Source of the DNA: Flammeovirgaceae bacterium
GTDB taxonomy: Bacteria > Bacteroidota > Bacteroidia > Cytophagales > Cyclobacteriaceae
DNA: 43,820 bases
Assembly (NCBI GenBank): GCA_024638265.1
Contig: JAHEKQ010000020.1
Span: 1-43,820, forward strand
Reading direction: 5' to 3'
The notes under the pieces were generated by a model. That model worked only from the letters and a program-made list of their open reading frames with translations, was not told the origin of the DNA and did no database searches. Of this stretch, positions 7,841 to 36,721 are shown in pieces. The translations under genes and the position numbers were made by a program. Each line of letters opens with the position of its first letter. Positions within the stretch are counted from its first letter, which is position 1.

Positions 7841-7917
7841 TATTTGACCTTTATGGGGTGAAGGGGGCAGCCGGTAGAAATGTTGTGGACGAGGCTGCCC
7901 CCATGTTGACAAATCAA

Positions 7918-15591: not shown

Positions 15592-17168
15592 TAATTCCCC
15601 CTCACCGTTGGATACTTAATCCCCAGTTGCTCCAGGTAGGAATCATACTTGGTCTCATCGTAGTAGTACCGCCGCATCTCCTCCCTGAATTGAGCCATAA
15701 TCTCGCTATTAATATAGGTGGGCGGAACATCCTCCGCTGAGATCAAAGGGGTGTATTGAGTTTCTTTGGTCTGGTTGGAAAAATAGGTAGAAGCATCCGT
15801 GAGCAACTGGGCATCCAGTAGCAAGTCAAGCATGGTGGCCGCCATGACTTTAGCACCTGAAACCACACCCTTATGTGCAATGGGGGTGGCCATTGCTACG
15901 GCATTGGACCAGTGATGACCTTGTAAGCCGGGAATATTGGCCGGGAATCTAAGAGTAACCGTGGGCACGGTCCATGAGATGTCCCCGATGTCGTCAGACC
16001 CGCCGCTCACGGGAGAACGGGGTGGTGCGCCCAGTTCAGGTAGCTTACTGCGCAGGCCGTTGGCGTTGGAATTCACCTCTTTCTGCAATGACTTTGCAAG
16101 AGTCTGGTCGTTTTCTGACCACTCGGGGAGTCCCACGATTTTAATATTATCGTACATGCGTTCAGCGATCGGCTTATTGAAATGGCGGGGCCAGGCACTT
16201 CCGAGTATCCTTGAATTCATTTTTGTATTGGTCATAAGTGCGGCTCCCTCGGCAATCTTCAAACCAGATTCAAAGTTCTCCTTTATTCCCTTATAGGTGA
16301 TCTCCCGGAAATAATACCAGACTGAGGCCTTTGAAGGCACCACATTGGGTTGATCGCCTCCATCAACAACCACGTAGTGACTTCGCTGTAAGGGATGTAT
16401 GTGCTCCCTTTTAAAGTTCCATCCAATATTCATCAGCTCCACGGCATCCAGGGCACTTCTTCCCCTCCAGGGAGCTCCGGCACTGTGGGCTGACTCCCCA
16501 TCGAAACTAAACAGCACTGATACAAGTCCCGTGCCTCTCGCTGGCCCGTAGGTAGTGGATAGATTACTGGAGACATGAGTAAAGAGACAGGCATCAACAT
16601 CTTTGAAATAGCCATCCCTGGCGAAATAGGCTTTACTGCCAAGCTGCTCCTCTGCGACACCGGGCCATAAAAGCAATGTACCCTGTATTCCCTCGCGTTC
16701 CATGATCTCCTTAACGGCCAGTGCCGCCACCACATTTACCGCCTGGCCACTGTTATGACCTTCCCCGTGTCCGGGCGCACCCTCGATTAGAGGATCATGG
16801 TAGGCAACACCCGGTTTTTGTGAAGCCTTTGGGATACAATCCAGGTCGCTACCAATGGCAATGACAGGTTTTCCGGATCCCCACTTAGCCATCCATGCTG
16901 TCTCGATCCCTGAAATGCCCTTCTCAATCTCAAATCCATTCTCCTCGAGCACGCTCGTTAAATAATTACTGGTCTCAAACTCCTGGAAACCGAGCTCTGC
17001 AAAGGAGAAGATCTTATCATTCATCACCTGGGCTAATTTTCCATTAGCAGCTACCTTTTCAATAGCTTCCATTTTCAGCTTTTCGACTTGCTTCTTTGAG
17101 TATTTCTTCTGTGCGGCAACTGTGAAAACCAACAGGAACAGGAATAGGGTAAACGCATAGCTTTTCAT
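15591..17168 (-). CDS. M20 family amidohydrolase, AbgB/p-aminobenzoyl-glutamate hydrolase-like
   Basis: A 525-residue exported metal hydrolase. It has a signal peptide ending VAAQ at residue 20. The M20D metal-site motifs are present: GSDLDCIPK near 106-114, GHGEGHNSG (133-141), the catalytic pair EE (173-174) in GVAEEQLGS, and H198. A dimerisation (lid) domain follows around 215-330. The closest family resemblance is to AbgB, which cleaves p-aminobenzoyl-glutamate, but other N-acyl amino acids are possible and a periplasmic location is unusual for AbgB itself. It lies 11 bases after the PrsW gene on the same strand, so they may be cotranscribed. Confidence 0.88.
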   Translation of the reverse strand: MKSYAFTLFLFLLVFTVAAQKKYSKKQVEKLKMEAIEKVAANGKLAQVMNDKIFSFAELGFQEFETSNYLTSVLEENGFEIEKGISGIETAWMAKWGSGKPVIAIGSDLDCIPKASQKPGVAYHDPLIEGAPGHGEGHNSGQAVNVVAALAVKEIMEREGIQGTLLLWPGVAEEQLGSKAYFARDGYFKDVDACLFTHVSSNLSTTYGPARGTGLVSVLFSFDGESAHSAGAPWRGRSALDAVELMNIGWNFKREHIHPLQRSHYVVVDGGDQPNVVPSKASVWYYFREITYKGIKENFESGLKIAEGAALMTNTKMNSRILGSAWPRHFNKPIAERMYDNIKIVGLPEWSENDQTLAKSLQKEVNSNANGLRSKLPELGAPPRSPVSGGSDDIGDISWTVPTVTLRFPANIPGLQGHHWSNAVAMATPIAHKGVVSGAKVMAATMLDLLLDAQLLTDASTYFSNQTKETQYTPLISAEDVPPTYINSEIMAQFREEMRRYYYDETKYDSYLEQLGIKYPTVRGN

Positions 17169-17179
17169 ATAAATGTATT

Positions 17180-17869
17180 TTATGAATTAAGATTTTGGTC
17201 TTTAAATGGTGAGGCATCCTGGTGCAGCTTTATCGCTTTCCTCGAGAAGTAAAATCCTATTCCCAGGGAGATAAACGCACCTATCCACAGGCCGGGAACG
17301 AATGATATGAAGAGAAAGTAGTCATAAATACCATGAACCAGCAAAGCACTTGCAAAAGCCATAAAACTCAGTAAGAATTCATGCTTATGAGTGAACTTTG
17401 CCTTCCCCAGGTAATAGCCCATTATTATCGCGAAAGTAGCATGAGCGGGAACTGCTGTAAACATTCGCAGGATTGCCGTAGAAGCATCCGTGTTCATTAC
17501 ATAAATGATGTTCTCCACGGTGGCAAATCCCATCCCGACCACCACAGCATATACAATTCCATCAAAGGGCTCATTGAAATTCTTGTCACGGTAGAGAATA
17601 AACCGTACAAAGAGAAATTTAAATGATTCTTCGACCAGTGCCACGGTAAAAGCATGCTCTGCTTCCCCGAGAAAATTATGTCCAAATGCATCGGTAATAC
17701 CTATAAACTGGGAGACTTTAAGGGCCAGCCAGAGGGCAATACCCCCATAGATAAAACTGAGGATGATCAGTCCCAGGGGCTCCTTCTCATGTTTGTCGGA
17801 GAGATAGATAAAAACCACGATGGCAATTCCGGGTAAAATGGAAAGTGCCAGCAGCAATAATTCATGCAT
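17180..17869 (-). CDS. PrsW family intramembrane protease
   Basis: A 229-residue polytopic membrane protein with about seven helices. The PrsW motifs are complete: VEESFK (E80, E81), GFATVENIIY (E119, N120), PAHATFAIIMGYYLG (H143) and VHGIYDYF (H179, D183). In Bacillus PrsW makes the first cut in the anti-sigma factor RsiW. Here an ECF sigma factor and a membrane-bound anti-sigma candidate lie about 3.4 kb upstream on the same strand, so a similar role is possible but unproven. Start ATG 17867-17869. Confidence 0.92.
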   Translation of the reverse strand: MHELLLLALSILPGIAIVVFIYLSDKHEKEPLGLIILSFIYGGIALWLALKVSQFIGITDAFGHNFLGEAEHAFTVALVEESFKFLFVRFILYRDKNFNEPFDGIVYAVVVGMGFATVENIIYVMNTDASTAILRMFTAVPAHATFAIIMGYYLGKAKFTHKHEFLLSFMAFASALLVHGIYDYFLFISFVPGLWIGAFISLGIGFYFSRKAIKLHQDASPFKDQNLNS

Positions 17870-17884
17870 GTGGAAAGATAGAGA

Positions 17885-18083
17885 GAGAATGGGAAAGGTT
17901 CAAGAGTTCACGAGGCAAGAGTTCAAGCGACCGAGGGAGGGGGAGGAGTGCATGAGGTTAAAGATGTAGCCCTAACCCAATCTTGTACTCAATCGCTTGA
18001 ACCCGAGTCGCGTGAACCTGAGTCTCGCGAATCCGTGAACTCGTAAACCCAAATCGCTTGAACCCGAGTCGCGTGAACCCGTG
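17885..18083. repeat. Low-complexity spacer with a 28-bp direct repeat
   Basis: The spacer between two minus-strand genes is made of short degenerate words such as GAGTTCA, GTGAACC and CGCTTGAACC. A 28-bp stretch starting AATCGCTTGAACCC occurs identically at 17991-18018 and 18052-18079. No coding frame or hairpin terminator was seen. Confidence 0.7.
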
Positions 18084-18096
18084 AACCCCAATTAAC

Positions 18097-21000
18097 TCAT
18101 TTAAGCAGCTTCAACGATACCATCCACTCATCATAAAACTTTCTTTCGCCTGCTTGTTGATCCATATTCCAGGCTCGGGCGAATCCGAAAGAGAGGGTCG
18201 CAGGGTTCAGGGAGAACATTACCAGCCGGGTATCGACCTGCGCGCCGAGGTTAATAAATTGCTCAGACCGGTCATTGTCGAAATCATAGACATTAAGCAC
18301 AGTAGTAAATATGTTGGATTGGGTCCAGTTGGCATAGAGATTGAAAAAGCCGAGTTTCCGGTAGCGTATAGGGGGCAATACAAGATCCGCCATCGCCTTG
18401 GTGAAGGATTTCGCTATTACCGTCTTGTCGGCATTGAAACTTAAGCCGGGAAACGAGAAAGTATTCCGGTATCGCTTGTGTGTCATGTAGTCAACATAAT
18501 TATTTCCAAACGCAGCAAAACCGAACCTCGTGAAGGGATTGAATGTCTCACTGAACGAATTTCCCGCGGCAGTCCTAAACCACAGTGAAGTATGACGGAA
18601 AGGCAATTGGAATCCAAATTCCATGGTCCCGGTCGCGGTTGGATATAGCGTATTCCCAGTCAGGGCAGTCCCCGCTCGCACAGAGGTCCTGAATCCCTTT
18701 TCATAATCCACAGCCCCCATTGAATTCTTGACGTAACTATAGGACAAGGATCCATTAAGATTATAGAAAAGGTTATCATCGAATCCTGTGGTCTCGACTT
18801 TCTGGAATTCAGGGGAACGATCGAGTCCATAAAATCCTCCCAGATTCAGGTTCAGGTCTAGTCTCTTTGGTGGATCCCAAATCAGGGACCTGTTGTAATT
18901 GACTGCAAAAGTAGCACCCCTCCTTGATCGTTTGGTAGGTCCGAAAAGATCGTAGAAATCAGCTTCATTATAACCGGCATATACATTGAACCTGCCTGCT
19001 TTAAAATGCATTGAAGCATGAAACCTCTCATCATTCTCAAGGGTATCTCCACTTGATATATCCTCTCCCAATTCATTAAACCAATTTGTTGGTGTATAGG
19101 AAAAGGAAAGATCCATGGTGCGGAAGCTAAGCGGATCCCCAAAGCTGAACTTGTAACCCAGCCCAATCCAGTTTTTGTATCCGACCAGGATGGGGTACGC
19201 CTGGTTAAGCCGGAACTTACTCATTGGTTTATAAGCTCCTTCATTGATTGTCAAAGCATCGATATCCACATCTTCCTTTCCTGGTATTTTTAATTCCCAG
19301 TCCATCAACATAGGGTGTTCTGCAACGGCCATGTTACCGAGGAATTCAATGCGTTTAATCCCCTCGGCTACTTTATTAGGTATTGTGACCGGGATGAATC
19401 CATCGCTTTTGAACTTAAAGGCGAATATTTGATTCTCATTGAGAAGAATAGGCCTGAAATACCCTGTCAGTGCATTCGACATAGGCTCAATTTCGAAGGT
19501 CTCTGCATCCAATCTTAAGATATTACTTACACCTGATAAATAGGATGACCCGATTAGGTACCTGCCATCTTCGGTATACCTGAAGCTCTGAGGGGAGGCT
19601 GGTTCAAAATTATATACCTCCGTTGATTCCGGTGAGCCGCCATCAAATGCCTCAATATCATAAATGAGTAATCTCTGATCACCGAAATAGTCTGATACTG
19701 CCGCGCTCAACTTTTTGCCATCGGGAGAAATATCAATGTCAAAGATATCCTGACCATAGGGCAGAGTATATATCTGTTCCCATGTGCTGTAAGGCGCTTT
19801 TTCACCCTCTTGTTTTGGTATCCTCACAATTGTTGAATAACCATTGAGGTGCTTAATACCCCATATGGACTCATCTGCGTCGTTAAATGCAAGATCTCCC
19901 GTTCGGAAATCCTTTTGTAATCGTATCGTTTCTCCTGTCACGAGGTTGTAACTGTTCAGGTCCCTCCAAGCGTCATTGTCTGTAGTGAAAAATATAAGAT
20001 CATTCTTTTCATCATAAACTATAGACGATACATAAAACAACGCGGCTCCCTTTATATCGGTCAAATGTTCGAGCTTGCCATTAGACAGGTCTATCGCCGC
20101 AAGGTGCGGGACTTTCCCCGGGTAATTTACCGCGACATAGACCTTGTTCCTTTTTTTATCATGATAAGCATATGATACTGAACCAAGCACATTTTGAGTG
20201 ACTGGCTCTGATACCGTTACAGGATTCTGGCCTATAGTTTTGATATTTCGCCGCTGAAAATCCCGCTCGAATTCAATCCATTCATCCCAGCCCTCGTTGA
20301 TAGGTTTTCCGAATACATGTTTGAACTGTGCTGAAAACAATCGCTTACTCCCGTCTTTTCTCTTTACCCATTCTATCATCTTTTCCGGACCATATTTATA
20401 AGCGAGGTAGCCCATAAAGCGGGTTCCATATAAATAGGAATTAGATTTCCCCTGGAAGTCCGTGGTTGTCCCTTCTGATTCAAGGCCCTGGGCGCTGTAG
20501 ATCCTGGCGTCTTCCAGTACCCGTGTCCTGAATACCATTTCATCGTAATTGCCCAAAGCAAGTCCTACCCCTCCACTCATCCATGTTTCTACATAGGAGG
20601 CTATCCCTTCATGGTACCATCGAGGGGAATACCTGCGGGGTGATGTCAGGTAGCTATAAAACATAGAAAGTGGCTGATCATTGGAGACGTGAACTTTCCC
20701 AAAAAACAGTTTATGGAAAAAGCGATCAGCCCGGGTAGAATTGTCAAGTGCTACCACGTGTACCAATTCGTGATTCATCAAACTGAACACACGTTCTCCA
20801 GCGGGACTCGTCTCAAAAGCATAACTGAAAGGTGACAAGCCCATGCTTACAGCATTGACCGGTACGGCTGTTGCTCCACCATTCCCGTAATCTCCGAAAT
20901 CCTGAATGAGTACTGTTATTCTTTCGGATGGTTCATAATCAAACAATTTCCTGTGGAATTCCAGTGCATTATGAAAGCACCTACCTGCGTGAGGGAGAAT

Positions 21001-21114
21001 ATATTTATGTCCGAAATCGTAGGTCACAAGGCTCATATCCTCTGTCTCTATCATATTGAGTTGAGCAAAGGATGTATGAGCTGACAGGAGAATCAGCAGA
21101 AGAAGGGCTCGCAT
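18097..21114 (-). CDS. Large surface protein: HExxH metallopeptidase, beta-propeller and outer-membrane barrel
   Basis: A 1005-residue exported protein with signal peptide 1-18 (SFAQ). Residues about 20-290 form a gluzincin peptidase: HELVH (H115, E116, H119) and the third ligand E169 in WYHEGIASYVE. Residues about 320-600 are TolB-like propeller repeats (DISPDGKKLSAAVSDY, FRYTEDGRYLIGSS). Residues about 640-1005 are alternating amphipathic strands ending in a lysine (KLLK), as in an outer-membrane barrel. The peptidase is thus probably held at the outer membrane. Substrate unknown. It lies 122 bases after the repeat-containing anti-sigma candidate, but a strong terminator between them argues for a separate transcript. 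Confidence 0.82.
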   Translation of the reverse strand: MRALLLLILLSAHTSFAQLNMIETEDMSLVTYDFGHKYILPHAGRCFHNALEFHRKLFDYEPSERITVLIQDFGDYGNGGATAVPVNAVSMGLSPFSYAFETSPAGERVFSLMNHELVHVVALDNSTRADRFFHKLFFGKVHVSNDQPLSMFYSYLTSPRRYSPRWYHEGIASYVETWMSGGVGLALGNYDEMVFRTRVLEDARIYSAQGLESEGTTTDFQGKSNSYLYGTRFMGYLAYKYGPEKMIEWVKRKDGSKRLFSAQFKHVFGKPINEGWDEWIEFERDFQRRNIKTIGQNPVTVSEPVTQNVLGSVSYAYHDKKRNKVYVAVNYPGKVPHLAAIDLSNGKLEHLTDIKGAALFYVSSIVYDEKNDLIFFTTDNDAWRDLNSYNLVTGETIRLQKDFRTGDLAFNDADESIWGIKHLNGYSTIVRIPKQEGEKAPYSTWEQIYTLPYGQDIFDIDISPDGKKLSAAVSDYFGDQRLLIYDIEAFDGGSPESTEVYNFEPASPQSFRYTEDGRYLIGSSYLSGVSNILRLDAETFEIEPMSNALTGYFRPILLNENQIFAFKFKSDGFIPVTIPNKVAEGIKRIEFLGNMAVAEHPMLMDWELKIPGKEDVDIDALTINEGAYKPMSKFRLNQAYPILVGYKNWIGLGYKFSFGDPLSFRTMDLSFSYTPTNWFNELGEDISSGDTLENDERFHASMHFKAGRFNVYAGYNEADFYDLFGPTKRSRRGATFAVNYNRSLIWDPPKRLDLNLNLGGFYGLDRSPEFQKVETTGFDDNLFYNLNGSLSYSYVKNSMGAVDYEKGFRTSVRAGTALTGNTLYPTATGTMEFGFQLPFRHTSLWFRTAAGNSFSETFNPFTRFGFAAFGNNYVDYMTHKRYRNTFSFPGLSFNADKTVIAKSFTKAMADLVLPPIRYRKLGFFNLYANWTQSNIFTTVLNVYDFDNDRSEQFINLGAQVDTRLVMFSLNPATLSFGFARAWNMDQQAGERKFYDEWMVSLKLLK

Positions 21115-21187
21115 AGGTTCAGGTTTGAATTACTTAAAATAGTGAACCTGCGTAAGCTTATCAAGTTGGACCTAAAAGGGATTAAAC

Positions 21188-21218
21188 AAAAAAGGAGAAG
21201 GTTGCCCTTCTCCCTTTT
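21188..21218 (-). terminator. Rho-independent terminator after the sigma/anti-sigma genes
   Basis: GGAGAAGG (21194-21201) pairs with CCTTCTCC (21206-21213) around a short loop, flanked by A-T pairs. On the minus strand the stem is followed by a run of T (21193-21188). It lies 19 bases past the stop of the 21237-22553 gene. Confidence 0.85.
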
Positions 21219-21236
21219 GACCACAGTTAAAAAAAA

Positions 21237-22553
21237 CTACTCTAAATCTTCTATACTGGCCATCTTTTCGAGGTCGCCAAACTGGGCGTTCATCATCAGA
21301 TTGCCAAATGTAGGGTTCTTCATTACTTCACTGAATGCAGGTGATTTCATCAAGTCATTGAATGAAGGTGATTTCATAAGATCACCAAGTGCGGGCATTT
21401 TCATCAATTCGCCAAATGCTGGTGATTTCATCAGTTCACCGAATGCAGGAGACTTCATTAATTCACCAAACTCGGGAGCTTTCATTAATTCGCCAAAACC
21501 GGGAGCTTTCATCAGTTCACCAAATTCAGGAGCTTTCATCAGTTCACCAAAATCAGGTGACTTCATCAGTTCACCGAATGCAGGCGACTTCATCAGTTCA
21601 CCAAAATCAGGTGACTTCATCAATTCACCAAAAGCAGGGGATTTCATTAGTTCTCCAAGTGCAGGGGCCTTCATCAGGTTTTCGAAAGCCGGGCTCATAG
21701 CAAGATTCTGAAATGCTGGACTTTTAGCTAAATCAGAAAACTCAGCATTCTTTTCAAGATCCGCGAATTGTGCATTCTTTGCCAGATCAATCATTCCGGG
21801 ACTCTTCTGAAGTTCCGCAAATGCTGGATTCTTAGCTATATCAAGGAATGCGGGACTCTTCATTAATTCTGCAAAGTCTGCGTTCTTCTGAAGTTCACCA
21901 AAAGCCGGAGACTTAAAGAGATCGGCGAATGAAGGAGACTTCATCAATTCGGCAAAGTCTGCATTCTTTTGAAGCTCACCCATTGCCGGGCTCATCATGA
22001 GATCTCCAAAATTAGGGGCTTTCGCCAAATCGGTGAATGCTGGAGATTTCATTAAATCAAAAAATTGGGGACTTTTTGCTAGATCCAGGAATGCAGGATT
22101 CTTCGCTAAATCCATAAATACTGCATTTTTCGCAAGAGCCGTAAATGAGGGTGACTTCATTAAATCCCGGAATTGATCATTTTGGATCATTTCCTGGAAA
22201 TCATCATTCTGCAGCAGTTGCTGAACTTCTTCTCCCTCCAAATCGACGGTTTCACCGCGCTCACTCTTATACTTTTCCGCCTTCTCGATTCCTCCGATAG
22301 CGGATCCTGAAGCATCTTCAGGGTTGAAACCATTGCTGACGATCATATATCCTGCGACGGCTACCACTACTACAGCGGCTGCAATCGCGATCGTGTAATT
22401 TCGTTTAGGTTTGTTTTCCATGATCAGTTTTTCATTTTTAAGTTGTTCAATTATTCTATTTTCGAGTGAAGCTTGGGGGAGCTTGAACTTGTCCAGGCTC
22501 TCGAATGCTTCTTTTTCTTCCGGGGTTAAATTCTGTTCCTCTTGCATCGTCAC
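21237..22553 (-). CDS. Predicted membrane anti-sigma factor with 36 tandem nonapeptide repeats (paralogue A)
   Basis: A 438-residue protein of unknown family. Residues 1-52 are charged and helical (KFKLPQASLENRIIEQLKNE), like the cytoplasmic part of Bacteroidota anti-sigma factors. Residues 53-73 are one membrane helix. Residues 80-115 are a linker with SGSAIGGIEKAEKYKSER and VDLEGEEVQQLLQ, shared with paralogue B. Residues 116-438 are 36 units of nine residues, without any insertion or deletion, consensus [S/N/A]-P-x-F-x-[E/D]-L-[M/A]-K, such as SPAFGELMK. The last unit is one residue short. The GTG start at 22553 overlaps the sigma stop as GTGA; ATG at 22547 is the alternative. Role as anti-sigma is inferred from position and N-terminus; the repeat function is unknown. 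Confidence 0.8.
   Translation of the reverse strand: MTMQEEQNLTPEEKEAFESLDKFKLPQASLENRIIEQLKNEKLIMENKPKRNYTIAIAAAVVVVAVAGYMIVSNGFNPEDASGSAIGGIEKAEKYKSERGETVDLEGEEVQQLLQNDDFQEMIQNDQFRDLMKSPSFTALAKNAVFMDLAKNPAFLDLAKSPQFFDLMKSPAFTDLAKAPNFGDLMMSPAMGELQKNADFAELMKSPSFADLFKSPAFGELQKNADFAELMKSPAFLDIAKNPAFAELQKSPGMIDLAKNAQFADLEKNAEFSDLAKSPAFQNLAMSPAFENLMKAPALGELMKSPAFGELMKSPDFGELMKSPAFGELMKSPDFGELMKAPEFGELMKAPGFGELMKAPEFGELMKSPAFGELMKSPAFGELMKMPALGDLMKSPSFNDLMKSPAFSEVMKNPTFGNLMMNAQFGDLEKMASIEDLE
21240..22208 (-). repeat. 27-bp tandem repeat array coding for the nonapeptides of paralogue A
   Basis: Thirty-six 27-bp units in one unbroken phase. The middle units (21399-21668) are nearly identical to each other at DNA level, while the outer ones have diverged, which points to recent local expansion. 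Confidence 0.9.
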
Positions 22554-23074
22554 TTCTCATTTAAATATTTCCTGATAGCACGCCTGGCTTGGAAAAGCTG
22601 GCTCTTACTGGTTCCTTCACTTATTTCGAGCATTTCACTTATATCTTTATGTCTGAAGCCCTCTACGTCGTGTAAAATCAATATCTGGCGGTATCCATTT
22701 GGCAGTGATTCAATTGCACTTTCAAGGTCCATCAGATCAATCCTGTTTTCCGTTGTTAGTGCCGGATCTTCTACCGACAGGTCTTCATAAACTTTTTCCC
22801 TGATTTTCGCTTTAAAATTCTCCCGGTTAATATTGATCAGTATTCCGATCAGCCAGGTAGTCAGGGTTGATTTATGTTTGAATGATTCAAGCTTCTTTAT
22901 CGCCCTGATCCAGGTATCCTGTATCAGCTCATCTGCTGCTCGATCATTCCGCCCTGTCAATCTATACGCCATTTGATATAATCTCGGGGTGTAAGTCCTG
23001 TACAAGGCTCTGAATGAATTCTCGGATCTTTCAGCCAGATACTCATTTACCATTTGAAGGTCCTGAGAGTCCAT
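22550..23074 (-). CDS. ECF-type RNA polymerase sigma factor
   Basis: A 174-residue sigma-70 family protein with region 2 (about 15-85: NSFRALYRTYTPRLYQMAYRL, then ADELIQDTWIRAIKKLESFK) and region 4 (about 120-170: IESLPNGYRQILILHDVEGF followed by HKDISEMLEISEGTSKSQLFQARR). It directs transcription of an unknown regulon. Its TGA overlaps the GTG of the repeat-containing membrane protein gene, the usual arrangement for sigma and cognate anti-sigma. Start ATG 23072-23074. An inverted repeat at 23094-23116 just upstream may be part of its promoter. Confidence 0.94.
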   Translation of the reverse strand: MDSQDLQMVNEYLAERSENSFRALYRTYTPRLYQMAYRLTGRNDRAADELIQDTWIRAIKKLESFKHKSTLTTWLIGILININRENFKAKIREKVYEDLSVEDPALTTENRIDLMDLESAIESLPNGYRQILILHDVEGFRHKDISEMLEISEGTSKSQLFQARRAIRKYLNEK

Positions 23075-23093
23075 TTTCTGTTAGTTAGTGTGA

Positions 23094-23116
23094 GATACAC
23101 CTAAAAAGGTTGTATC
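23094..23116. promoter_or_regulatory. Inverted repeat upstream of the ECF sigma gene, candidate autoregulatory site
   Basis: GATACA (23094-23099) and TGTATC (23111-23116) are perfect arms; CC and GG extend them with one bulged T. On the minus strand this reads ATACAACCTTTTTAGG, containing the AACC core typical of ECF -35 elements, and a second CAACCTT lies ten bases further upstream. A clear -10 partner was not found. Confidence 0.4.
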
Positions 23117-23194
23117 AAGGTTGAAAAAAAAGGAAGATAATATAAAGAATTGTACCCGGTTAATGAAATTTCCCGGGTCCCCGAAGGATAGATT

Positions 23195-24232
23195 TTACCT
23201 CTCTAAGGTTTCTGAAATGTCCTCCAAGTCACCAAAACGGGCATTTTTCATGAAAGCGGAAAAGGTCTCGTTTTTCATTAATTCTGTAAATGACGGGTTC
23301 ATCGCCAAATTGGAGAAAGAGGGATGTTTTGCAATTTCTGTCAATCCAGGATTCTTCATCAGCGAGATAAAGTCTGGCTGCATTGCAAGTTCTGTAAACG
23401 AAGGATTTTTAAACAATTCAGAAAATGCAGGGTTCATGCTCAACTCGAGGAAAGAAGGGTGCATCATCAATTCCCGGATCGCTGGATTCCTCATGAACTC
23501 CCCAAATTGTGGGTTCTTGGCAAATTTGACAAAAACCGGGTTCCTGGCTAGTTCAATAAATGCCGGGCTTCTCGCCAAATTCTGAAAATTGGGATGCATG
23601 GCGAGTTCCTGCATTCCGGGGTTCATGGCCAATTGCTGAAATTGACTGGACCTTGCCAAATCCAACATGGCGGGATTGTGGGCAAGTTCTTCGAAACCCG
23701 GGATTCTGGCAACATCGGCCAAGCCCGGGTGCTTCATAAGTTCAGAAAATGCCGGATCTTCCAACATTTCTCCCAATTGGGGAGCCTTTGCAAGCTCAGC
23801 CAATGCATTGGTCTTTTGTAGCTGTGTGAATTGGGGGGTACTTCGAAGTGCCTCAAATTGCGGAGACCTCGCCAGGGTGGCAAAATCCGGATTCATAGCG
23901 AGCTGATTAAAGGAGGGCAACATTGCCAGTTCAATGAATACAGGGTTGGAAACCATCTTGGCAAACTCGGGAGACTTGAGGAGTCGCCGGAAAGATTCGT
24001 CATTCATTAATTCGTGGAAGTGCTCGCTTTGTAATAATTCCTGTACTTCCTCGCCTTCTAAATCAACTGATTCTGTTCTTTCTGTTTTATGTTTTTCTGC
24101 CTTTTCAACACCTCCAACAGCTGAACCTGAGATCATGGATGGATCAAACTGATCACCTACTACCATAAAGTATCCAATTGCTGTTACCGCGACGACCATT
24201 ACAGCCACATATGTCAAACCGCCCTTTCTCAT
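23195..24232 (-). CDS. Membrane-anchored protein with 30 tandem nonapeptide repeats (paralogue B)
   Basis: A 345-residue protein homologous to paralogue A but lacking its cytoplasmic N-terminal part. One membrane helix (about 6-25) is followed by the shared linker SGSAVGGVEKAEKHKTER and VDLEGEEVQELLQ (residues 36-68), then 30 complete nine-residue units (69-338) without indels, consensus [N/S/H]-P-x-F-x-E-L-[AM]-[MKR], and a short tail. Unit sequences are much more diverse than in A, suggesting an older array. The ATG at 24230-24232 is preferred over an upstream in-frame TTG at 24254-24256. It lies 120 bases before the sigma gene on the same strand. It may be a decoy, partner or co-sensor of paralogue A; no family is recognised. 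Confidence 0.78.
   Translation of the reverse strand: MRKGGLTYVAVMVVAVTAIGYFMVVGDQFDPSMISGSAVGGVEKAEKHKTERTESVDLEGEEVQELLQSEHFHELMNDESFRRLLKSPEFAKMVSNPVFIELAMLPSFNQLAMNPDFATLARSPQFEALRSTPQFTQLQKTNALAELAKAPQLGEMLEDPAFSELMKHPGLADVARIPGFEELAHNPAMLDLARSSQFQQLAMNPGMQELAMHPNFQNLARSPAFIELARNPVFVKFAKNPQFGEFMRNPAIRELMMHPSFLELSMNPAFSELFKNPSFTELAMQPDFISLMKNPGLTEIAKHPSFSNLAMNPSFTELMKNETFSAFMKNARFGDLEDISETLER
23219..24028 (-). repeat. 27-bp tandem array coding for the nonapeptides of paralogue B
   Basis: Thirty in-phase 27-bp units, recognisable at protein level (Pro at position 2, Phe or another hydrophobic at 4, Leu at 7) and strongly diverged at DNA level. Confidence 0.85.
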
Positions 24233-24253
24233 GGTTTTCCGATTGGAGAGAAA

Positions 24254-24261
24254 CAAATATA
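24254..24261 (-). promoter_or_regulatory. Candidate -7 element (TATATTTG) for paralogue B
   Basis: On the minus strand TATATTTG matches TAnnTTTG exactly and lies 21 bases before the ATG at 24232. A TTTTG box 24 bases further upstream (24286-24290) could be the -33 element, at slightly long spacing. Confidence 0.45.
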
Positions 24262-24603
24262 GTCAAATTCGAAAAAATCTTACATCAAAATTCATTTGTA
24301 ACAGCCGCAATCCGCCTAATTGCCACATATATCGATGAATAACATCAGGTAATACGAAGAAATCTTACCTGGGGTAAGCCCGGATAATTAAGATGTTTCC
24401 CCTAAAAAATTGAACCCTTCCAAGGACGATGTTCAGTAAAACTTTCAACAATGGTGCTGAATGATTTTTTAAATAATACATAACATTTATATTTGACTCG
24501 ACCATTTACCGCAAATAGACCTACTCTAGAAGGGAATTCATTCGCGAAAAGATGGTGCCACTGCGACTAAAACCAATGTAAGTGGTAACACTATTTTTTT
24601 GAC
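24262..24603. other. Divergent intergenic region, no gene seen
   Basis: About 340 bases between paralogue B and the calcium ATPase. No credible frame, tRNA or long repeat was found. On the plus strand TATATTTG at 24488-24495 matches TAnnTTTG and may be the ATPase promoter, though no good -33 box precedes it. A small hairpin (CTTACC 24364-24369, GGTAAG 24373-24378) has no T tract. Confidence 0.5.
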
Positions 24604-27309
24604 ATGAAGTATAATATCTCTGGCTTATCTGAACAGGAAGTCGCCGAATCTCGTGCGAAATACGGTTCTAATGAACTATCTCCATATAAACTGGAGAGCT
24701 TCTGGACTAAGCTACGCCAAAACTTCAAAGACCCGATTATTATCATCCTGGTCATTGCGCTGGTGGTAATATTTGTACTTTCTCTCTTTGAACTTACCGA
24801 ATGGTACGAAGCTGTGGCTATTGGTGCCGCTGTATTACTCGCCACCTTCGTATCGACTTTCTCTGAATTCAAGAACGAAAATTCCTTTCAAAAACTTCAG
24901 GAGGAGGCATCGCGAATTAATAATCTCGTAATCCGCGATAGCCAGGTAACACAGATCCCCATTACTGAAATCGTCAATGGAGACTACGTCTTCTTACAGG
25001 CGGGCGATAAAATACCCGCCGATGGCCACCTAGTCGAAGGGGATGTCAAGGTGAACCAGGCCAGCCTGACCGGGGAATCAGATAGTGTAAACAAAGACCC
25101 GATCAGGGAAAATGACATCGATCCTGAGAAAATGGACTTCTCCAATAAGTCGGACCTTTTCCGGGGTTCCGTAATAGATGAAGGTGAAGGAGTGATGAGG
25201 GTGGCCATGGTCGGCGATAGGACGGTATACGGACGTCTTGCCAGTGAACTCTCCGGTGGAGATAACCGGCCTTCCCCACTTCAGGTCAAACTAAAAGGTC
25301 TTGCGGCACTGATCAGCCGCTTTGGTTACATCGCTGCCATCCTAATTTTCGTTGCCTTTATATTCAACAAAGCTTTTGTACTGAACGGTTGGGACTGGGA
25401 TCTTATCCGAGCCTATTTTTCAGATTTAAATATACTTCTGCCGGATGTGCTTAACGCCATCGTACTTTCCATAATAATCGTGGTAGCCGCAGTTCCCGAG
25501 GGCTTGCCAATGATGATTGCCATCGTACTTTCTCTCAATATGAGAAAGCTCCTGACAGAAAAAGTCCTGGTTAGGAAGCTTCTTGGAATCGAAACGGCAG
25601 GTAGCCTCAATATCCTTTTCTCAGACAAAACAGGAACCATCACCAAAGGCCAACTCGAACCGATGATGTTTATATCGAGTTCAAAGACCACCTATAATAA
25701 CTATGACGAGATCCCGGAACCTTTAAAGAGTCTCGTGGGATTCTCTATTATAGAAAATACTGCTTCCTATATTTCACCTAAGGGAGAGGTCGTGGGAGGT
25801 AATTCTTCGGAACGCGCTCTTTTGAGCTTTATTAACAAAGAGGATATCAAGAGAATCACGGATTTCGGCGCCAAACCGGAGAAGTTGATCCTCTTTGACA
25901 GTAGTCGTAAATTTTCCGCTACTCAAGTGATCACCCCTCAGCCCATTCCGGGTACTGACCTCGGCAACCTGTCCCTTATTAAAGGAGCCCCTGAAATTGT
26001 CCTGGAAAAGTGTAACTACTACCTAGATGAAGAAGGCCAGGTACAGGAGTATCATAACCATGCAGATCTCACTGCTCAAATAGACGACCTGGCCGATAAG
26101 GGAATCCGCTTGATTGCCCTGGCCGTTTCAAGACAGCCCCTGGCGGATGAAACAAGTATTCCCGGGCAGGCCGCACTATTAGGTGTCATTGCCATTCGCG
26201 ATGAGATCCGGGAGGAATCCAAATGGTCCATCGATGAAGTAAAACGCGCAGGTATCCAGGTGGTTATGATCACAGGAGACCGCAAAGAGACGGCCCAGGC
26301 CATTGCTACGGAGACCGGCCTCCTGGAGGATGAGAACGATGTGGTATTGGTCTCGTCAGAACTGAACGAAAAAACAGAGGAAGAACTCCTGCAAATTCTT
26401 CCTAATCTAAGAGTAATCGCCCGAGCATTGCCGACGGACAAGAGCCGATTGGTCAGGCTTTCGAAAGCTGCCGGTAAGGTGGTGGGGATGACCGGTGACG
26501 GAGTAAACGACTCCGCCGCCCTGAAGCAATCCGATGTCGGTATTGCCATGGGTTCCGGTTCAGAGGTTTCCAAGGAAGCCGGAGATATAGTTATACTGGA
26601 TGATAACTTCTATTCGATCACAAATGCGGTAAGGTATGGTCGTGCCATCTTCAAATCGATTAGAAAATTTATCATTTTCCAGTTGACGATTAACGTCGCC
26701 GCTGTGTCAACGGCTTTTCTTGGCCCTCTATTTGGAATTGACTTCCCGCTAACCATTATCCAATTATTGTGGATCAATATGATCATGGACACGCTGGCTG
26801 CCATTGCTTTTGGCGGGGAACCGGCGCTGTTCCGGTACATGGAGGAACCTCCGGTCAACCGGGAAGAGAATATACTCACGAAGTATATGCTTTCGGCTAT
26901 ACTGACGACCGGGTTCTTTATTACTGCTTTCTCCCTGTTCTTTTTAACCTCCGATGTATTGCGGGAGTTGTTTGTAAGGGACGGGGTTGCCAATGAAGCG
27001 GTCTACCTGACAGCCTTCTTCAACATCTTTATCTTTATGATCATCTTCAATGGCTTTTCTGTGAGGACGCACAAGATCAACCTGCTCGATCACCTGGAAA
27101 AGAACTGGAGGTTTGTCATTGTCATGGTGGGCATTTTGATCCTCCAAATCATTTTCACCTACATAGGGGGGAACATACTTCGAACCACCGGACTGACTAT
27201 GCAGGAGTGGTGGTATGTATTTGCCATATCACTGATTATCATTCCCATCGACATGATCCGAAAGCTGATTTTTAAGGCAGTTTCGAAAGGACCGGTGAGG
27301 TCTGTATAG
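24604..27309 (+). CDS. Calcium-translocating P-type ATPase (P2 type)
   Basis: A 901-residue inner-membrane cation pump. It has the N-terminal cation-ATPase domain (GLSEQEVAESRAKYGSNEL), the actuator motif LTGES (155-159), the ion-site proline motif PEGLP (298-302), the phosphorylation site DKTGT (D341) and the hinge TGDGVNDSAALK near 630, plus about ten membrane helices. The overall form is that of PMCA/SERCA-like calcium pumps, exporting Ca2+ from the cytoplasm. No extra metal-binding N-terminal domain is present. It is followed by a heptamer/octamer repeat spacer and then a universal stress protein gene. Ion specificity is inferred from the family. Confidence 0.92.
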   Translation: MKYNISGLSEQEVAESRAKYGSNELSPYKLESFWTKLRQNFKDPIIIILVIALVVIFVLSLFELTEWYEAVAIGAAVLLATFVSTFSEFKNENSFQKLQEEASRINNLVIRDSQVTQIPITEIVNGDYVFLQAGDKIPADGHLVEGDVKVNQASLTGESDSVNKDPIRENDIDPEKMDFSNKSDLFRGSVIDEGEGVMRVAMVGDRTVYGRLASELSGGDNRPSPLQVKLKGLAALISRFGYIAAILIFVAFIFNKAFVLNGWDWDLIRAYFSDLNILLPDVLNAIVLSIIIVVAAVPEGLPMMIAIVLSLNMRKLLTEKVLVRKLLGIETAGSLNILFSDKTGTITKGQLEPMMFISSSKTTYNNYDEIPEPLKSLVGFSIIENTASYISPKGEVVGGNSSERALLSFINKEDIKRITDFGAKPEKLILFDSSRKFSATQVITPQPIPGTDLGNLSLIKGAPEIVLEKCNYYLDEEGQVQEYHNHADLTAQIDDLADKGIRLIALAVSRQPLADETSIPGQAALLGVIAIRDEIREESKWSIDEVKRAGIQVVMITGDRKETAQAIATETGLLEDENDVVLVSSELNEKTEEELLQILPNLRVIARALPTDKSRLVRLSKAAGKVVGMTGDGVNDSAALKQSDVGIAMGSGSEVSKEAGDIVILDDNFYSITNAVRYGRAIFKSIRKFIIFQLTINVAAVSTAFLGPLFGIDFPLTIIQLLWINMIMDTLAAIAFGGEPALFRYMEEPPVNREENILTKYMLSAILTTGFFITAFSLFFLTSDVLRELFVRDGVANEAVYLTAFFNIFIFMIIFNGFSVRTHKINLLDHLEKNWRFVIVMVGILILQIIFTYIGGNILRTTGLTMQEWWYVFAISLIIIPIDMIRKLIFKAVSKGPVRSV

Positions 27310-33301: not shown

Positions 33302-33547
33302 GGAAGTAAAAAGGCAGAAGTTAAAAGTTAAAAGGTAAAGGGAAGTAAAAGTGCAGGGTGAAAAGTGTAAATCTAGTGGAGAAGTAAAAAAGCAAAAGTC
33401 AGAAGGTAAAAGTTAAAAGCGGTTATTAATTGAGAACAAGCTAGGGTCGATCTTTACTGCCATTATTATCTATTCTCTATCATATATCATCTTACCTCAC
33501 CCCTCATACCTCATCCCCACTGTTAGTTGTTAGTTGTTAGTTGTTAG
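33302..33547. repeat. Composite heptamer spacer after floA
   Basis: First part (33302-33419): words of AAAAGTT and AAAGGCA type, including a 33-bp stretch (33351-33383) that matches 38687-38719 at 32 of 33 positions. Second part (33464-33547): twelve in-phase heptamers ending in four copies of TTGTTAG type units. The hoxW stop codon (33530-33532) is inside this second part. Confidence 0.85.
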
Positions 33548-33961
33548 TTTAAAATGCTGTACTGCGAGTGCTAATCTCATTTTAGCAACTTCCGACATCC
33601 CATTCCCCAATTCCCAATCTTCCCCGGAAATCCCAACAAGATGGGCTGATGGGTACGAATCATAAATGTCATGGCATAACTGTAAAATGGCTGAGGGCGG
33701 CAATGCATGGGATGTATACGAATGTTGTGCCTGCGGTTTTACCTCTTCGGATTTATACCCATTTTCATACATTTCATGAGAAGCATCAATGAACCAGACT
33801 CTTTGATAATTCGATATTAGCTCAGCATCCTCGATCTGAAGTTGATACCGATATTGTAATTCGAACCGGGTATCATCTGCCATCCTGTCAAGGAAAGCCC
33901 AGCCCAATCCGTCGTCTGCTCGTCCTATATTACCAATTCCAATAACCAGGATCTTTTCCAT
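33530..33961 (-). CDS. hoxW: Hydrogenase maturation endopeptidase (HoxW/HyaD type)
   Basis: A 143-residue protease that removes the C-terminal extension of the large subunit after nickel insertion. The motif GIGNIGRADDGLG (8-20) contains the nickel-sensing aspartate (D16), FIDAS is near 57-61 and the SHALPPS histidine follows near 84, as in the M52 family. The start overlaps the stop of hoxH by one base. The last codons (about KLTTNN) and the stop lie in the TTGTTAG heptamer repeat, so the C-terminus may have been reset by the repeat. Confidence 0.88.
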   Translation of the reverse strand: MEKILVIGIGNIGRADDGLGWAFLDRMADDTRFELQYRYQLQIEDAELISNYQRVWFIDASHEMYENGYKSEEVKPQAQHSYTSHALPPSAILQLCHDIYDSYPSAHLVGISGEDWELGNGMSEVAKMRLALAVQHFKLTTNN

Positions 33962-35409
33962 TAATTGCTTATGGTTTTGATCAGCTCATCATCTGCATTA
34001 TATAACTCTGCTTTCAAGGGCATTTTTCCAAGTGCTTGCGTTGCACAACTCAGGCATGGATCATAGGCCCTGATGGCCACTTCGACCTGGTTGAGCATCC
34101 CTTCGGTGATCGTTTCCTGTTCTGATATTACCTCTTGTGCTACTTTTCTCACACTTCGATTCATTGCTTCATTATTATGCGTAGTCGAAACGATCAGGTT
34201 ACACTTCTGGATCATACCCTTTTCGTCCACCTGGTAGTGGTGAATTAATGTTCCCCTTGGGGCTTCTATGATTCCAATTCCTTCATTTCGGCGCTCTCCT
34301 TCCCTTCTGAGATCGGTACTGAGAATGTCCGGATCATTCAGCAGTTCTTTCATAATTTCTGCACAGTGCAGTATTTCTATAAGTCTTGCCCAATGCGTAT
34401 GCATCGTGTGATGATTTACTGACACCCCGTTAAGGGCAAAGAAATCTTGTCTTTCCTGCTCAGCAAGGGGGGTGGGAATACTTTCACATACATTCATCCT
34501 GGCCAATGGACCAACCCGGTTCCATCCATTTTCCAGACCGCGGTCCTTGAGAAATGGAAATTTCATATATGACCATCTCTCAACATGTTCTGAAAAATAT
34601 TTGTGGTAATCATCTGTCGGTATGTCATTCAGTGTTATGTTACCTTCCGCATCAATCGCCCGCAGTGCACCATGGTAGAGTTCCAGCTTACCATTTCCCG
34701 AAACCATCCCGAGATGGCCGGAAGGATGACTCGCGAAAGTGTCCATGAAGGTTTTGTGCTCTATATGATAAGCCTTCATGAAGTTTATGATCTCCCTGGA
34801 CCATTCTATCATCGTGTCAATGTTGGGTATATCCCTTCCATTCAGAAAGTACTCCCGCTCCTCGGGCATGAAAGTCTTATATACACCCCCCGGTACACAG
34901 GCGGTACCATGGATTTTTTTTCCTGCTATGGCCTTAATTACCTCCTGGCCAAACTTTCTCATTAGGATTCCTTTTCGTGCTAGTTCCTTGTCTGCCATTG
35001 CCACACCAACCACATTCCTGTTCAGGCTGGGAGAATCAACTCCGAATAAAAGGTCAGGTGACGCCAGGTAGAAGAAATGCAAGGCATGGGATTGGAATAT
35101 TTGGCCGTAGTGAAGGAGCTTCCTCAGCTTTTGCGCAGGTTCGGAAAGATTGAAGGGATCAATACCTACCAGCTGGTCTATCGCTTTTGCGGCTGCCAGG
35201 TGGTGGCTCACCGGACAGATACCACAGAGTCTTTGCACAAGTACCGGTGCTTCCCAGTATGGGTGGCCCTGGATGAATCGTTCAAATCCGCGAAATTCAA
35301 CGATGTGAAAATAGGCCTTATTGACTTTGCCCGTATCGTCAAGGTGAATAGTTACACGTCCATGCCCCTCTACTCTTGTTACCGGATCAATGGTGATTTT
35401 CCTACTCAT
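33961..35409 (-). CDS. hoxH: [NiFe] hydrogenase large subunit (Hox type, group 3)
   Basis: A 482-residue cytoplasmic catalytic subunit. The four nickel cysteines are present: C62 and C65 in RLCGICPVSHH, and C452 and C455 in DPCLSCATQ. A 24-residue C-terminal extension follows, so processing by the adjacent protease is expected. The residue at the usual cleavage position is Gln458 rather than His or Arg, which is uncommon. The motif forms and the diaphorase partners place it with NAD(P)-linked group 3 (most like 3d) hydrogenases. It follows the fused hoxU-hoxY gene by ten bases. Confidence 0.93.
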   Translation of the reverse strand: MSRKITIDPVTRVEGHGRVTIHLDDTGKVNKAYFHIVEFRGFERFIQGHPYWEAPVLVQRLCGICPVSHHLAAAKAIDQLVGIDPFNLSEPAQKLRKLLHYGQIFQSHALHFFYLASPDLLFGVDSPSLNRNVVGVAMADKELARKGILMRKFGQEVIKAIAGKKIHGTACVPGGVYKTFMPEEREYFLNGRDIPNIDTMIEWSREIINFMKAYHIEHKTFMDTFASHPSGHLGMVSGNGKLELYHGALRAIDAEGNITLNDIPTDDYHKYFSEHVERWSYMKFPFLKDRGLENGWNRVGPLARMNVCESIPTPLAEQERQDFFALNGVSVNHHTMHTHWARLIEILHCAEIMKELLNDPDILSTDLRREGERRNEGIGIIEAPRGTLIHHYQVDEKGMIQKCNLIVSTTHNNEAMNRSVRKVAQEVISEQETITEGMLNQVEVAIRAYDPCLSCATQALGKMPLKAELYNADDELIKTISN

Positions 35410-35419
35410 AACCTATTGC

Positions 35420-36718
35420 TTAATCGTATTTGAATTCATGATACAATACAGAAAATCCCTCATCCCACAGAAGGTTCCTGATCACCTTCCATAAGTGGTC
35501 TGCCGATGGCGGACAACCCGGCACGAAATAGTCTATCTTGACAATTTCATTGCATGAATAGACCCTGTCGAGCAGCTTGGGAAGATCTTCATGATACGGG
35601 ATAACCCATTCTCCTTTAACACTTGTTTCCACGTTGATATATGCCTCCTCAAGACATTCACCCAAAGGTATCGTGTTACGCATGGCGGGCAGGCCTCCCC
35701 AAATAGCACATTCACCTACCGAAACCAGGATATCGCAATTGTCCCTGAACTTGCGCAACGTTTCAATATTTTCAGCATTACAGCAACTACCTTCAACGAT
35801 ACCGATATCGCAGCGTTTAGTGAACTCTTTGATATCAGTAAGGGGAGATTTATTGAACTCTACCACGTTAACAATATCGAGAAGCTGCTCATCTATATCC
35901 AGGAGTGACATATGACATCCGAAGCAACCTGCAAGAGATACGGTGGCCACGGTCTTTTTATCCATTTTCTTTTGTTCTTTCTTAGAGGGGAAGAGGACAT
36001 TGTAATCCTTTTGATCAGATTCCATGTCAAAACTTCTCTCACCGAAAGGCTCAACAAGACTGCTGCCCCTCACAATGATAGCCCCGGTCGGGCAAAGATC
36101 CATGGCGGCTTTGGCCTGTTTCTCTGTCAACTGTGCTTCCTGTTCATAATCGACGGCTACAAGGGTATCTATTCCCCTGTTGTGATACATAAATACCCGT
36201 TTGCCCTCATCGGTGAAGACCTCTTCCACACATCTTCTACACTTGATACAACGGTTGTTCTCCAGGACCATTCGTTGAGGGTTATAGTCAATAACCCGGT
36301 CTTTAAAGAGGTGGGGAAAGCGGATGTTGGTAACGCCTAATTCATAACCCATATGCTGAAGGTCACAGTTACCGCTTTTCTCGCACGATGGACAGAAGTG
36401 ATTTCCTTCTGCGAACATCATTTCAACAAGTGCATGGCGTATATCCTTAAGTTTTTCTGTATTCACTTCTATAGCCATGCCTTCCTCCAATTTTTGGATA
36501 CATGCGGGCAGATAATTGCCATTCACCTTACAGGTACATGCCCTGCAGGTTCCCAGGGGTGGATCATGATGTTTAAAATAACACAATGAAGGAATAAAGA
36601 CTCCGTTCTCCATAGCGGCATCGACGAGATTCTGACCTTCCCTGGCTTCGCAGGTTTTACCATCGATGCTAAAGCTTACAAGTTTTTCTTTTGGTTTAGT
36701 GTTCTTCATAGCCTTCAC
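35420..36718 (-). CDS. Fused diaphorase/hydrogenase small subunit (HoxU-HoxY)
   Basis: A 432-residue iron-sulfur protein that joins two normally separate Hox subunits. Residues 10-225 are HoxU-like: [2Fe-2S] C46, C58, C61, C73; an H-C-C-C [4Fe-4S] site H107, C109, C112, C118; and a further [4Fe-4S] site C157, C160, C163, C209. After a lysine-rich linker (about 230-255) residues 256-432 are HoxY-like: AGCFGCHMS (C265, C268), C312/C313, GECAIWGG (C337) and PGCPPS (C402), which bind the proximal cluster. M252 lies where a free HoxY would start. It carries electrons between HoxF and HoxH. Three bases separate it from hoxF. Confidence 0.9.
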   Translation of the reverse strand: MKAMKNTKPKEKLVSFSIDGKTCEAREGQNLVDAAMENGVFIPSLCYFKHHDPPLGTCRACTCKVNGNYLPACIQKLEEGMAIEVNTEKLKDIRHALVEMMFAEGNHFCPSCEKSGNCDLQHMGYELGVTNIRFPHLFKDRVIDYNPQRMVLENNRCIKCRRCVEEVFTDEGKRVFMYHNRGIDTLVAVDYEQEAQLTEKQAKAAMDLCPTGAIIVRGSSLVEPFGERSFDMESDQKDYNVLFPSKKEQKKMDKKTVATVSLAGCFGCHMSLLDIDEQLLDIVNVVEFNKSPLTDIKEFTKRCDIGIVEGSCCNAENIETLRKFRDNCDILVSVGECAIWGGLPAMRNTIPLGECLEEAYINVETSVKGEWVIPYHEDLPKLLDRVYSCNEIVKIDYFVPGCPPSADHLWKVIRNLLWDEGFSVLYHEFKYD

Positions 36719-36721
36719 TTG

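Follow-up and report, generated by a model that had tools for sequence, protein, structure and literature searches.

What purpose is served by two membrane-anchored proteins, each carrying a strict nine-residue repeat, that lie on either side of a sigma factor gene? The question is raised by contig JAHEKQ010000020.1 of a Flammeovirgaceae bacterium (order Cytophagales, phylum Bacteroidota; assembly GCA_024638265.1), whose positions 1 to 43,820, the whole stretch analysed, are referred to here as the window. The two repeat proteins, P1 and P2, flank a gene for an extracytoplasmic function (ECF) sigma factor, and an earlier, sequence-only reading took their arrays for a periplasmic solenoid that senses unfolded envelope proteins and controls the sigma factor. 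The P2-sigma-P1 arrangement of that reading stands, but the gene set does not end at position 21237, where it had been closed; it continues downstream through a metallopeptidase/propeller/barrel protein of 1005 residues, for which we coined the working name GTB, and a PrsW-family intramembrane protease to position 17180. Both of these neighbours had been overlooked, and both are better conserved than the sigma factor. Our tentative interpretation, to which we give somewhat less than an even chance, is that the locus is a conserved envelope module, made up of an anchored repeat protein, an outer-membrane GTB and PrsW and joined here to an ECF sigma factor, in which the repeat protein would be released by PrsW.

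A conserved gene row with an exchanged repeat

A search of Bacteroidota genomes with a profile of the P1 and P2 nonapeptide proteins, a check that the sequence-only reading had proposed, did recover homologues, with matches in 14 of 390 genomes of the window's order and 9 of 395 genomes of the phylum, the window's own being included in each count. Two of the former were dropped, leaving 12: G055, whose 885-aa protein is unrelated and has a long repeat of another kind, and G129 (locus L115, 512 aa, 28 bits), from which the shared linker is absent. Among 59 closely related genomes (the window's own and 58 relatives), the window genome alone holds the repeat protein, the one other match, again G055, having been rejected as false. 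The GTB profile matched 31 of the 395 phylum genomes (E ≤ 1e-20; in G483 over part of the model only), and these include all nine genomes with repeat-protein matches (hypergeometric 3.4e-11, a value that treats the genomes as independent, which they are not). For gene order, 20 stretches with a repeat-protein match were read, together with the surroundings of 16 of the 22 remaining GTB genes; the other six were left out for lying at a contig edge (G530, G476, G748, G451 and G739) or matching in part (G483). The repeat gene has GTB as its neighbour in the window and, with L115 dropped, in 18 of 19 loci with homologues, L106 being the exception.

The tree of 35 GTB sequences splits 24 versus 11 with support of 100/100. 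Visible repeat proteins of the 24-member clade have an N-terminal transmembrane (TM) helix with no obvious signal-peptidase site, as judged from hydropathy and by eye; in the 11-member clade, a signal peptide was recognised by eye in all seven repeat proteins that could be read. PrsW, which in the window scores far above the gathering cutoff of its family and lies 227 bases from GTB, comes directly after GTB in 21 of the 22 anchored-clade loci that could be assessed (the exception being L154; the sequence ends too early in L120 and L153) and in none of the 11 signal-peptide loci, for which 0.7-2.0 kb downstream is visible. This pattern of genes suggests that PrsW may serve the anchored proteins as signal peptidase serves the signal-peptide clade. 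In locus L106 (1199-3346), the repeat gene is followed directly by PrsW with no GTB, and the same genome, G134, also carries a repeat-GTB-PrsW set in L107. Because PrsW is kept in the 10 assessable loci of the window's order that have no sigma gene, and adjoins the GTB-less repeat gene in L106, its target is probably the repeat protein.

The zinc motif of GTB is intact throughout the family: HExxH is present in 35 of 35 sequences, and HE..H and E169 are invariant in all 15 that were aligned. GTB thus has the HExxH and downstream Glu of the gluzincins (Peptidase MA), the Pfam profile itself remaining sub-threshold, and some homologues give weak matches to Peptidase_MA_2. PD40 exceeded its cutoff in one of nine singly scanned GTBs (L163, 26.0 vs 20.9), and the propeller matches of the others, including the window's (Lactonase, WD40 or PD40), were sub-threshold. 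Omp85_2 was matched by 3 of 15 GTBs at E ≤ 0.1, the best at 18.0 bits against a cutoff of 23.1 (residues 780-919), and a PDB profile search with GTB returned no match under E 0.11. GTB is probably an outer-membrane protein; its signal peptide was recognised by eye.

The fullest gene row, found in the anchored clade outside the window's order, reads HATPase - STAS - ECF sigma - anti-sigma - repeat protein - GTB - PrsW. Outside the order, an ECF sigma gene is part of the row in 7/7 genomes with P1/P2-profile matches and in 11/11 assessable anchored-clade loci (L116-L122, L153-L155 and L157; L156, whose upstream side is cut off, was excluded from this count). An RsbW-like HATPase and a STAS gene both lie upstream of the sigma gene in nine of these 11 loci (L116-L122, L153 and L154; not L155 or L157), and from their Pfam assignments we take them to be a partner-switch-like pair. 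A gene of its own encodes the anti-sigma in L116, L121, L122, L153, L155 and L157; in L117-L120 the anti-sigma is fused ahead of the TM helix of the repeat protein, and in L154 ahead of that of the protein occupying the same place. In the window's order, where 12 loci were fetched, the stable unit is repeat protein - GTB - PrsW and the upstream genes vary; none of the 10 assessable loci (L103-L105 and L107-L113, with about 8 kb visible upstream; L106 shows 1.2 kb and L114 none) yielded a sigma gene, and the window, which has one, is the exception. Nor was a sigma gene found in the 11 loci of the signal-peptide clade, seven of which show about 7-8 kb upstream. The link to a sigma/anti-sigma pair drawn by the sequence-only reading is therefore borne out by the loci outside the order, fusions included; its own refuting observation, homologues with no sigma gene beside them, is seen in part, in the 10 same-order and 11 signal-peptide loci. 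Three genomes of a single genus encode, immediately upstream of the repeat gene, a protein of 705-707 aa whose N-terminal region contains YDIFISYRHKD and looks TIR-like by eye (L103:9522-11639, L104:6434-8551 and L105:6755-8878).

Between the membrane and the array, a segment of the form SG[ST]xGG..AxKYK persists in syntenic homologues while the repeat type changes. The pattern [STEKA]G[TSD][IMLAG] sits 8-11 residues past the TM helix in 20 of 24 anchored repeat proteins; L109 and L110 do contain AGSG, the pattern script having returned an earlier match, and L111 and L112 have TSSGIKG in place of the motif. Some residues further on, anchored proteins carry A-x-[RK]-Y-[RK] or a close variant of it (L109-L113, L153 and L155-L157 lack the strict pattern), and the signal-peptide repeat proteins have an A-x-R-x-R motif 1-8 residues past their hydrophobic stretch. 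All six separate anti-sigmas carry G[TS][IMLA] 9-16 residues past the TM helix (five of six by a stricter pattern), compared with one of 42 single-TM genes adjoining other sigma genes (Fisher 5.7e-7; the six are related and not independent, because the anti-sigma profile was seeded with five of them). The stricter pattern was found in 0 of 41 single-TM open reading frames (ORFs).

The repeat itself is exchanged between lineages. A period of 9 (or 18) residues was found in the window, L103-L113 and L116-L121, of 12 in L122, of 16 in L160, L163, L164, L167 and L168, and of 15 in L165; no clear period could be seen in L153 and L155-L157, and part of L159 is masked. In the signal-peptide clade the 15/16-residue copies are near-perfect (self-match of 0.85-1.0 in six), and such signal-peptide proteins (e.g., SGSQLDELGSKYGWVR) are encoded upstream of GTB in L159, L160, L163-L165, L167 and L168. 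Anchored homologues range from 176 to 539 residues in length, so the idea that the array acts as a fixed ruler was rejected.

Arrays and sigma factor of the window

When laid out in rows of nine, P1 gives 36 full rows and an 8-residue tail, and P2 gives 31 rows and a 7-residue tail (a count that includes the GEEVQ[QE]LLQ row of the linker, which is imperfect); neither array has an indel, and the phase is kept up to the protein ends. Identity at a lag of nine residues is 0.57 for P1 and 0.34 for P2, compared with maxima of 0.143 and 0.123, respectively, in 2000 shuffles. In these respects the sequence-only reading was accurate: two single-pass proteins with indel-free, in-phase nonapeptide arrays flank the ECF sigma gene and share the linker that it described. 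Its account of P2 needs correction, in that P2 has no cytoplasmic domain. The P2 start was placed at the ATG at 24232; a TTG upstream, at 24256, is also open. Four kinds of peptide unit recur in 2-4 copies each, with DNA that is never identical between copies (the four copies of SPAFGELMK have four DNA versions), and synonymous differences between units amount to 0.70-0.80 per site; because copies of one peptide differ this much in their codons, the arrays appear to be old. They are under purifying selection, with ratios of nonsynonymous to synonymous differences per site (pN/pS) of 0.11 among ten P1 units that are near-perfect, 0.43 across the 35 P1 units used and 0.59 across 30 P2 units. No invariant cut residue is present in the units. 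Plus-strand matches of the arrays were set aside as antisense images of the repeat, among them a 189-aa open frame at 21142-21711, antisense to the P1 array, which is not a gene.

AlphaFold2 models contain one helix of about 7 residues per nonapeptide, with a mean predicted local distance difference test score (pLDDT) of 57.3 for whole P1 and 70.8 for residues 287-438 alone; the short Pro-started helices of the sequence-only reading are thus supported with moderate confidence. Foldseek found no match to the models at E ≤ 0.001 (best E values 3.9e-3, with a TM score of 0.14, and 0.28), and VIA-align gave a best Z of 5.6 with designed repeat proteins on top, a generic helical arrangement only. 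The same reading had likened the unit to STI1/DP motifs. STI1-HOP_DP (PF17830) scores 35.1 bits against a cutoff of 29.1 in P2, but no single stretch of P2 passes, and P1 has no match; among 20 homologues at E ≤ 0.001, PF17830 was matched in 8 and PF23195 in 5. These scores are sums over many weak stretches; the resemblance is real at the profile level in some members, but it does not account for the exchanged repeats. Pfam OSCP, NCBIfam TPR_END_plus and the PDB entries for coagulation factor V and Spt5 also surfaced and were rejected as apparent whole-sequence sums on short-period repeats, not homology.

The window sigma (174 aa) matches Sigma70_r2 at 2.7e-13 and Sigma70_r4_2 at 2.6e-17, the sigma2 and sigma4 regions in a short protein that define the ECF class. 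The GTGA overlap of 4 bases with P1 is as the sequence-only reading had it, with the P1 GTG at 22553 and the sigma TGA at 22552-22550; an alternative ATG for P1 at 22547, two codons on, would remove it. In class I anti-sigma domains, according to the cited part of PMC7406223, an N-terminal four-helix domain binds sigma2 through helix 4 and sigma4 through helix 1. P1 residues 16-42 align weakly with the SL-x-x-x-I helix region of the module anti-sigma profile (6.8 bits), and residues 1-49 align weakly with a control anti-sigma profile (5.8 bits), both in one-sequence searches. The cytoplasmic part of P1 has 52 residues versus 94-128 in the module anti-sigmas, and is close to the ordinary neighbours of background sigmas, in which the TM helix starts mostly at 40-62.

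In the sigma tree, eleven module sigmas form a group (100/99) and the window sigma falls outside it on a branch of 2.2; a single clade of window and module sigmas was not rejected (p-AU 0.442, 12 vs 23 rows). Background and controls came from 54 loci found by scanning genome contigs with the window sigma, none of which contains a repeat or GTB gene at E ≤ 1e-3, and because this background was picked by likeness to the window sigma, the tree may be biased toward separating it. We lean tentatively towards an independent recruitment of the window sigma, with a short anti-sigma segment fused to the repeat protein. AACCTT occurs 37, 48 and 136 bases upstream of the window sigma and is absent upstream of all eight other module sigma genes examined. 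P1 and GTB are separated by a terminator-like hairpin, so sigma and P1 may form a unit of their own, and GTB may have its own promoter or rely on read-through past the hairpin. No Rfam match was found within 17000-24700. The features are collected in Table 1.

Table 1. Positions of the repeat-protein, sigma, GTB and PrsW features in the window.
Feature	Position	Strand	Basis or remark
P2: repeat protein with TM, linker and 30 nonapeptide units, without cytoplasmic domain	23195..24232	-	
P2 juxtamembrane motif SGSAVGGVEKAEKHK, candidate PrsW cut region	24086..24130	-	8 residues after TM window
P2 nonapeptide array	23219..24028	-	residues 77-346, numbering from TTG
ECF sigma factor, Sigma70_r2 + Sigma70_r4_2	22550..23074	-	Pfam
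P1: short anti-sigma-like N-terminus fused to TM, linker and nonapeptide array	21237..22553	-	
P1 cytoplasmic anti-sigma-like segment, residues 1-52	22398..22553	-	weak one-sequence-search alignment
P1 transmembrane helix, residues 54-72	22338..22394	-	hydropathy
P1 juxtamembrane motif SGSAIGGIEKAEKYK, residues 82-96, candidate PrsW cut region	22266..22310	-	
P1 nonapeptide array, residues 116-438	21240..22208	-	
Terminator-like hairpin + T run, between P1 and GTB	21189..21218	-	z -3.74
GTB: signal peptide (by eye), HELVH...E metallopeptidase, beta-propeller, C-terminal barrel (WD40-Omp85-like)	18097..21114	-	
GTB HELVH zinc motif, residues 115-119	20758..20772	-	
PrsW-family intramembrane protease	17180..17869	-	PF13367, 1.5e-35, 123 bits, cutoff 23.5

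Proposed release by PrsW and competing explanations

In the mechanism that we propose, P1 and P2 would be inserted with their arrays in the periplasm, and PrsW would cut them in the SG[ST]xGG region, 8-11 residues outside the membrane. The product would begin a few residues ahead of A-x-[RK]-Y-[RK], much like the end that signal peptidase would leave in the signal-peptide clade. GTB would then handle the freed protein, most simply by delivering it to, or across, the outer membrane, and A-x-[RK]-Y-[RK] would serve as the recognition segment; the array would be a generic helical chain whose exact sequence carries little weight across lineages. Because P1 also bears a cytoplasmic anti-sigma-like segment, the same cut could be the site-1 cleavage of an anti-sigma factor, after which, by analogy with RsiW, a site-2 protease would free the sigma factor, so that the sigma factor would read out the release of the repeat protein. 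A cut of this kind could likewise set the sigma factor free in loci whose separate anti-sigma has the motif in common with the repeat protein.

Several observations weigh against this proposal. The anti-sigma match of P1 is weak, and the window sigma falls outside the module-sigma clade, though one clade with it is not rejected (p-AU 0.442). A single transcript is not assured, because of the hairpin between P1 and GTB and the 227 bases between GTB and PrsW, and the sigma-release step would not be general, since most loci across the wider family lack a sigma gene. The correlation between anchor and PrsW rests on a single deep split of the GTB tree and so amounts to one evolutionary event, the downstream view in the signal-peptide clade is just 0.7-2.0 kb, and L154 is anchored with no adjacent PrsW. 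L111 and L112 have an altered motif (TSSGIKG) beside PrsW, and the Omp85 matches of GTB stay under the Pfam cutoff (18.0 vs 23.1 bits).

A further reading, which we regard as possible but somewhat unlikely, makes the system an N-terminal counterpart of sortase-like release and export, in which PrsW would cut at SG[ST]xGG, GTB would take any A-x-[RK]-Y-[RK]-tagged protein whatever its repeat, and the cut, when made in an anti-sigma that is fused or shares the motif, would allow the cell to count the molecules set free. The anti-sigma/repeat fusion would then have arisen more than once, with a long domain in L117-L120 and L154 and a short one in the window. The repeat protein could instead be a tether or scaffold between the inner membrane and GTB that PrsW removes when GTB is missing or misassembled, with the sigma factor inducing repair; the inner-membrane anchor of one clade, the outer-membrane-type partner, the long arrays, and PrsW with the anti-sigma motif are consistent with this, but a tether that varies from 176 to 539 residues and in the other clade has its anchor replaced by a signal peptide (by eye and from hydropathy) makes it unlikely. 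That the array is a passive spacer kept by repeat slippage, with linker, GTB and PrsW as the parts that matter and the window sigma as a chance neighbour, we consider quite unlikely. Unit sequence and length do turn over between lineages, the window sigma stands outside the module clade, no sigma was found elsewhere in the part of the order that was examined, and P1 is followed by a terminator-like hairpin, yet the units are under purifying selection (pN/pS 0.11-0.59), sigma and P1 overlap by 4 bases, and sigma is present in all 11 assessable anchored-clade loci outside the order.

The explanation originally offered, that the nonapeptide solenoid binds hydrophobic segments of unfolded envelope proteins in the manner of STI1/DP and signals to the sigma factor, now seems very doubtful. 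It can draw on the STI1-HOP_DP scores of P2 and 8 of 20 homologues (E ≤ 0.001), on the one short helix per unit in the AlphaFold2 models and on the anti-sigma domain ahead of the array in P1 and L117-L120. However, P1, the carrier of the anti-sigma segment here, has no STI1 match and the scores elsewhere add up many weak stretches; syntenic homologues have unrelated 12-, 15- or 16-residue repeats, or aperiodic sequence, in place of the nonapeptides; and the protein is found with no nearby sigma gene in the 10 assessable same-order loci, the 11 signal-peptide loci having yielded no sigma gene either. Extremely improbable, in our estimate, is a multi-copy precursor whose array the GTB metalloprotease would cut into near-identical small signal or effector peptides. 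The near-perfect 15/16-residue copies of the signal-peptide clade (self-match 0.85-1.0 in six) and the intact HExxH would suit such a precursor, but the window units have diverged (pN/pS 0.43 and 0.59) and share no invariant cut residue, and L153 and L155-L157 have no clear repeat.

Known systems and neighbouring genes

The proposed release by PrsW has a precedent in Bacillus subtilis, where, in the cited part of PMC3498285, PrsW is the site-1 protease of the anti-sigma factor RsiW. As in that PrsW-RsiW-SigmaW system, the gene for a PrsW-family protease lies close to those for an ECF sigma factor and a single-pass protein resembling an anti-sigma. The present loci differ in that PrsW accompanies GTB and the repeat protein also in loci where no sigma gene was found, in the long array of repeats that makes up the periplasmic part, and in having an outer-membrane-type partner. 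The PrsW substrate named in that cited text is an anti-sigma factor, and the synteny described here points to a second class of substrate with a readable motif and a candidate cut site. PrsW-linked release of C-terminal toxin domains has been proposed, mainly for Gram-positive bacteria (PMC3482391, as far as the cited text goes); the 20 repeat proteins scanned here gave no match to a toxin family. The nearest sorting analogue in the texts cited is myxosortase, a CPBP-family intramembrane protease that frees single-pass proteins for surface placement at a short membrane-adjacent motif (PMC11980579, in the part cited). The MYXO-CTERM tag described there is C-terminal with an invariant cysteine, whereas here the anchor is N-terminal, SG[ST]xGG is cysteine-free and cleavage is presumed.

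GTB resembles the WD40-Omp85 class of the Omp85/TpsB superfamily in its putative beta-propeller ahead of a putative C-terminal barrel, and differs from the class as described in the cited part of PMC4104836 in the HExxH metallopeptidase domain before the propeller and in its sub-threshold Omp85 match. The authors of PMC4104836 liken the class to a BamA-BamB fusion and, in that part of their text, catalogue it without known function or partners; a literature search by the term WD40-Omp85 found nothing beyond that paper. With the present loci, a WD40-Omp85-like barrel gains partner genes. Two-partner secretion (TpsA/TpsB) systems have a TPS domain in the exoprotein and POTRA domains in the transporter. 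They likewise encode a repeat-rich protein beside an Omp85-like barrel, but Pfam scans found no TPS or POTRA family in the 20 repeat proteins (E ≤ 0.001) or the scanned GTBs, and short helical repeats, PrsW and a metallopeptidase set the present loci apart. STI1/HOP-DP and ubiquilin (PF17830, PF23195) share NPxFxEL-like units with short helices; the arrays here differ in their strict 9-residue period, their length of about 12-45 units and their presumed periplasmic location.

A search of titles and abstract starts, with subscription literature mostly outside it, found no published account of this gene set. The evidence suggests an undescribed envelope system that may free, and perhaps export, a repeat protein and possibly report the cut to the genome. 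It also offers a natural case in which the repeat unit has been replaced while the N-terminus, the partner genes and the position were kept, which may help in addressing what repeat arrays are for.

Among the signal-peptide loci, a sigma-54-type activator gene was recognised by eye in L159, L164, L167 and L168, and a kinase-like gene with a GAF-type sensor gene in L159, L160, L164, L167 and L168. Elsewhere in the window, ORFs read by eye form a nitrous-oxide reductase-like cluster at 4119-9882 (a 654-aa NosZ-like protein with NosD-, NosF- and NosY-like proteins) and a NiFe hydrogenase-like cluster at 33530-38488, with diaphorase-type subunits and a maturation peptidase.

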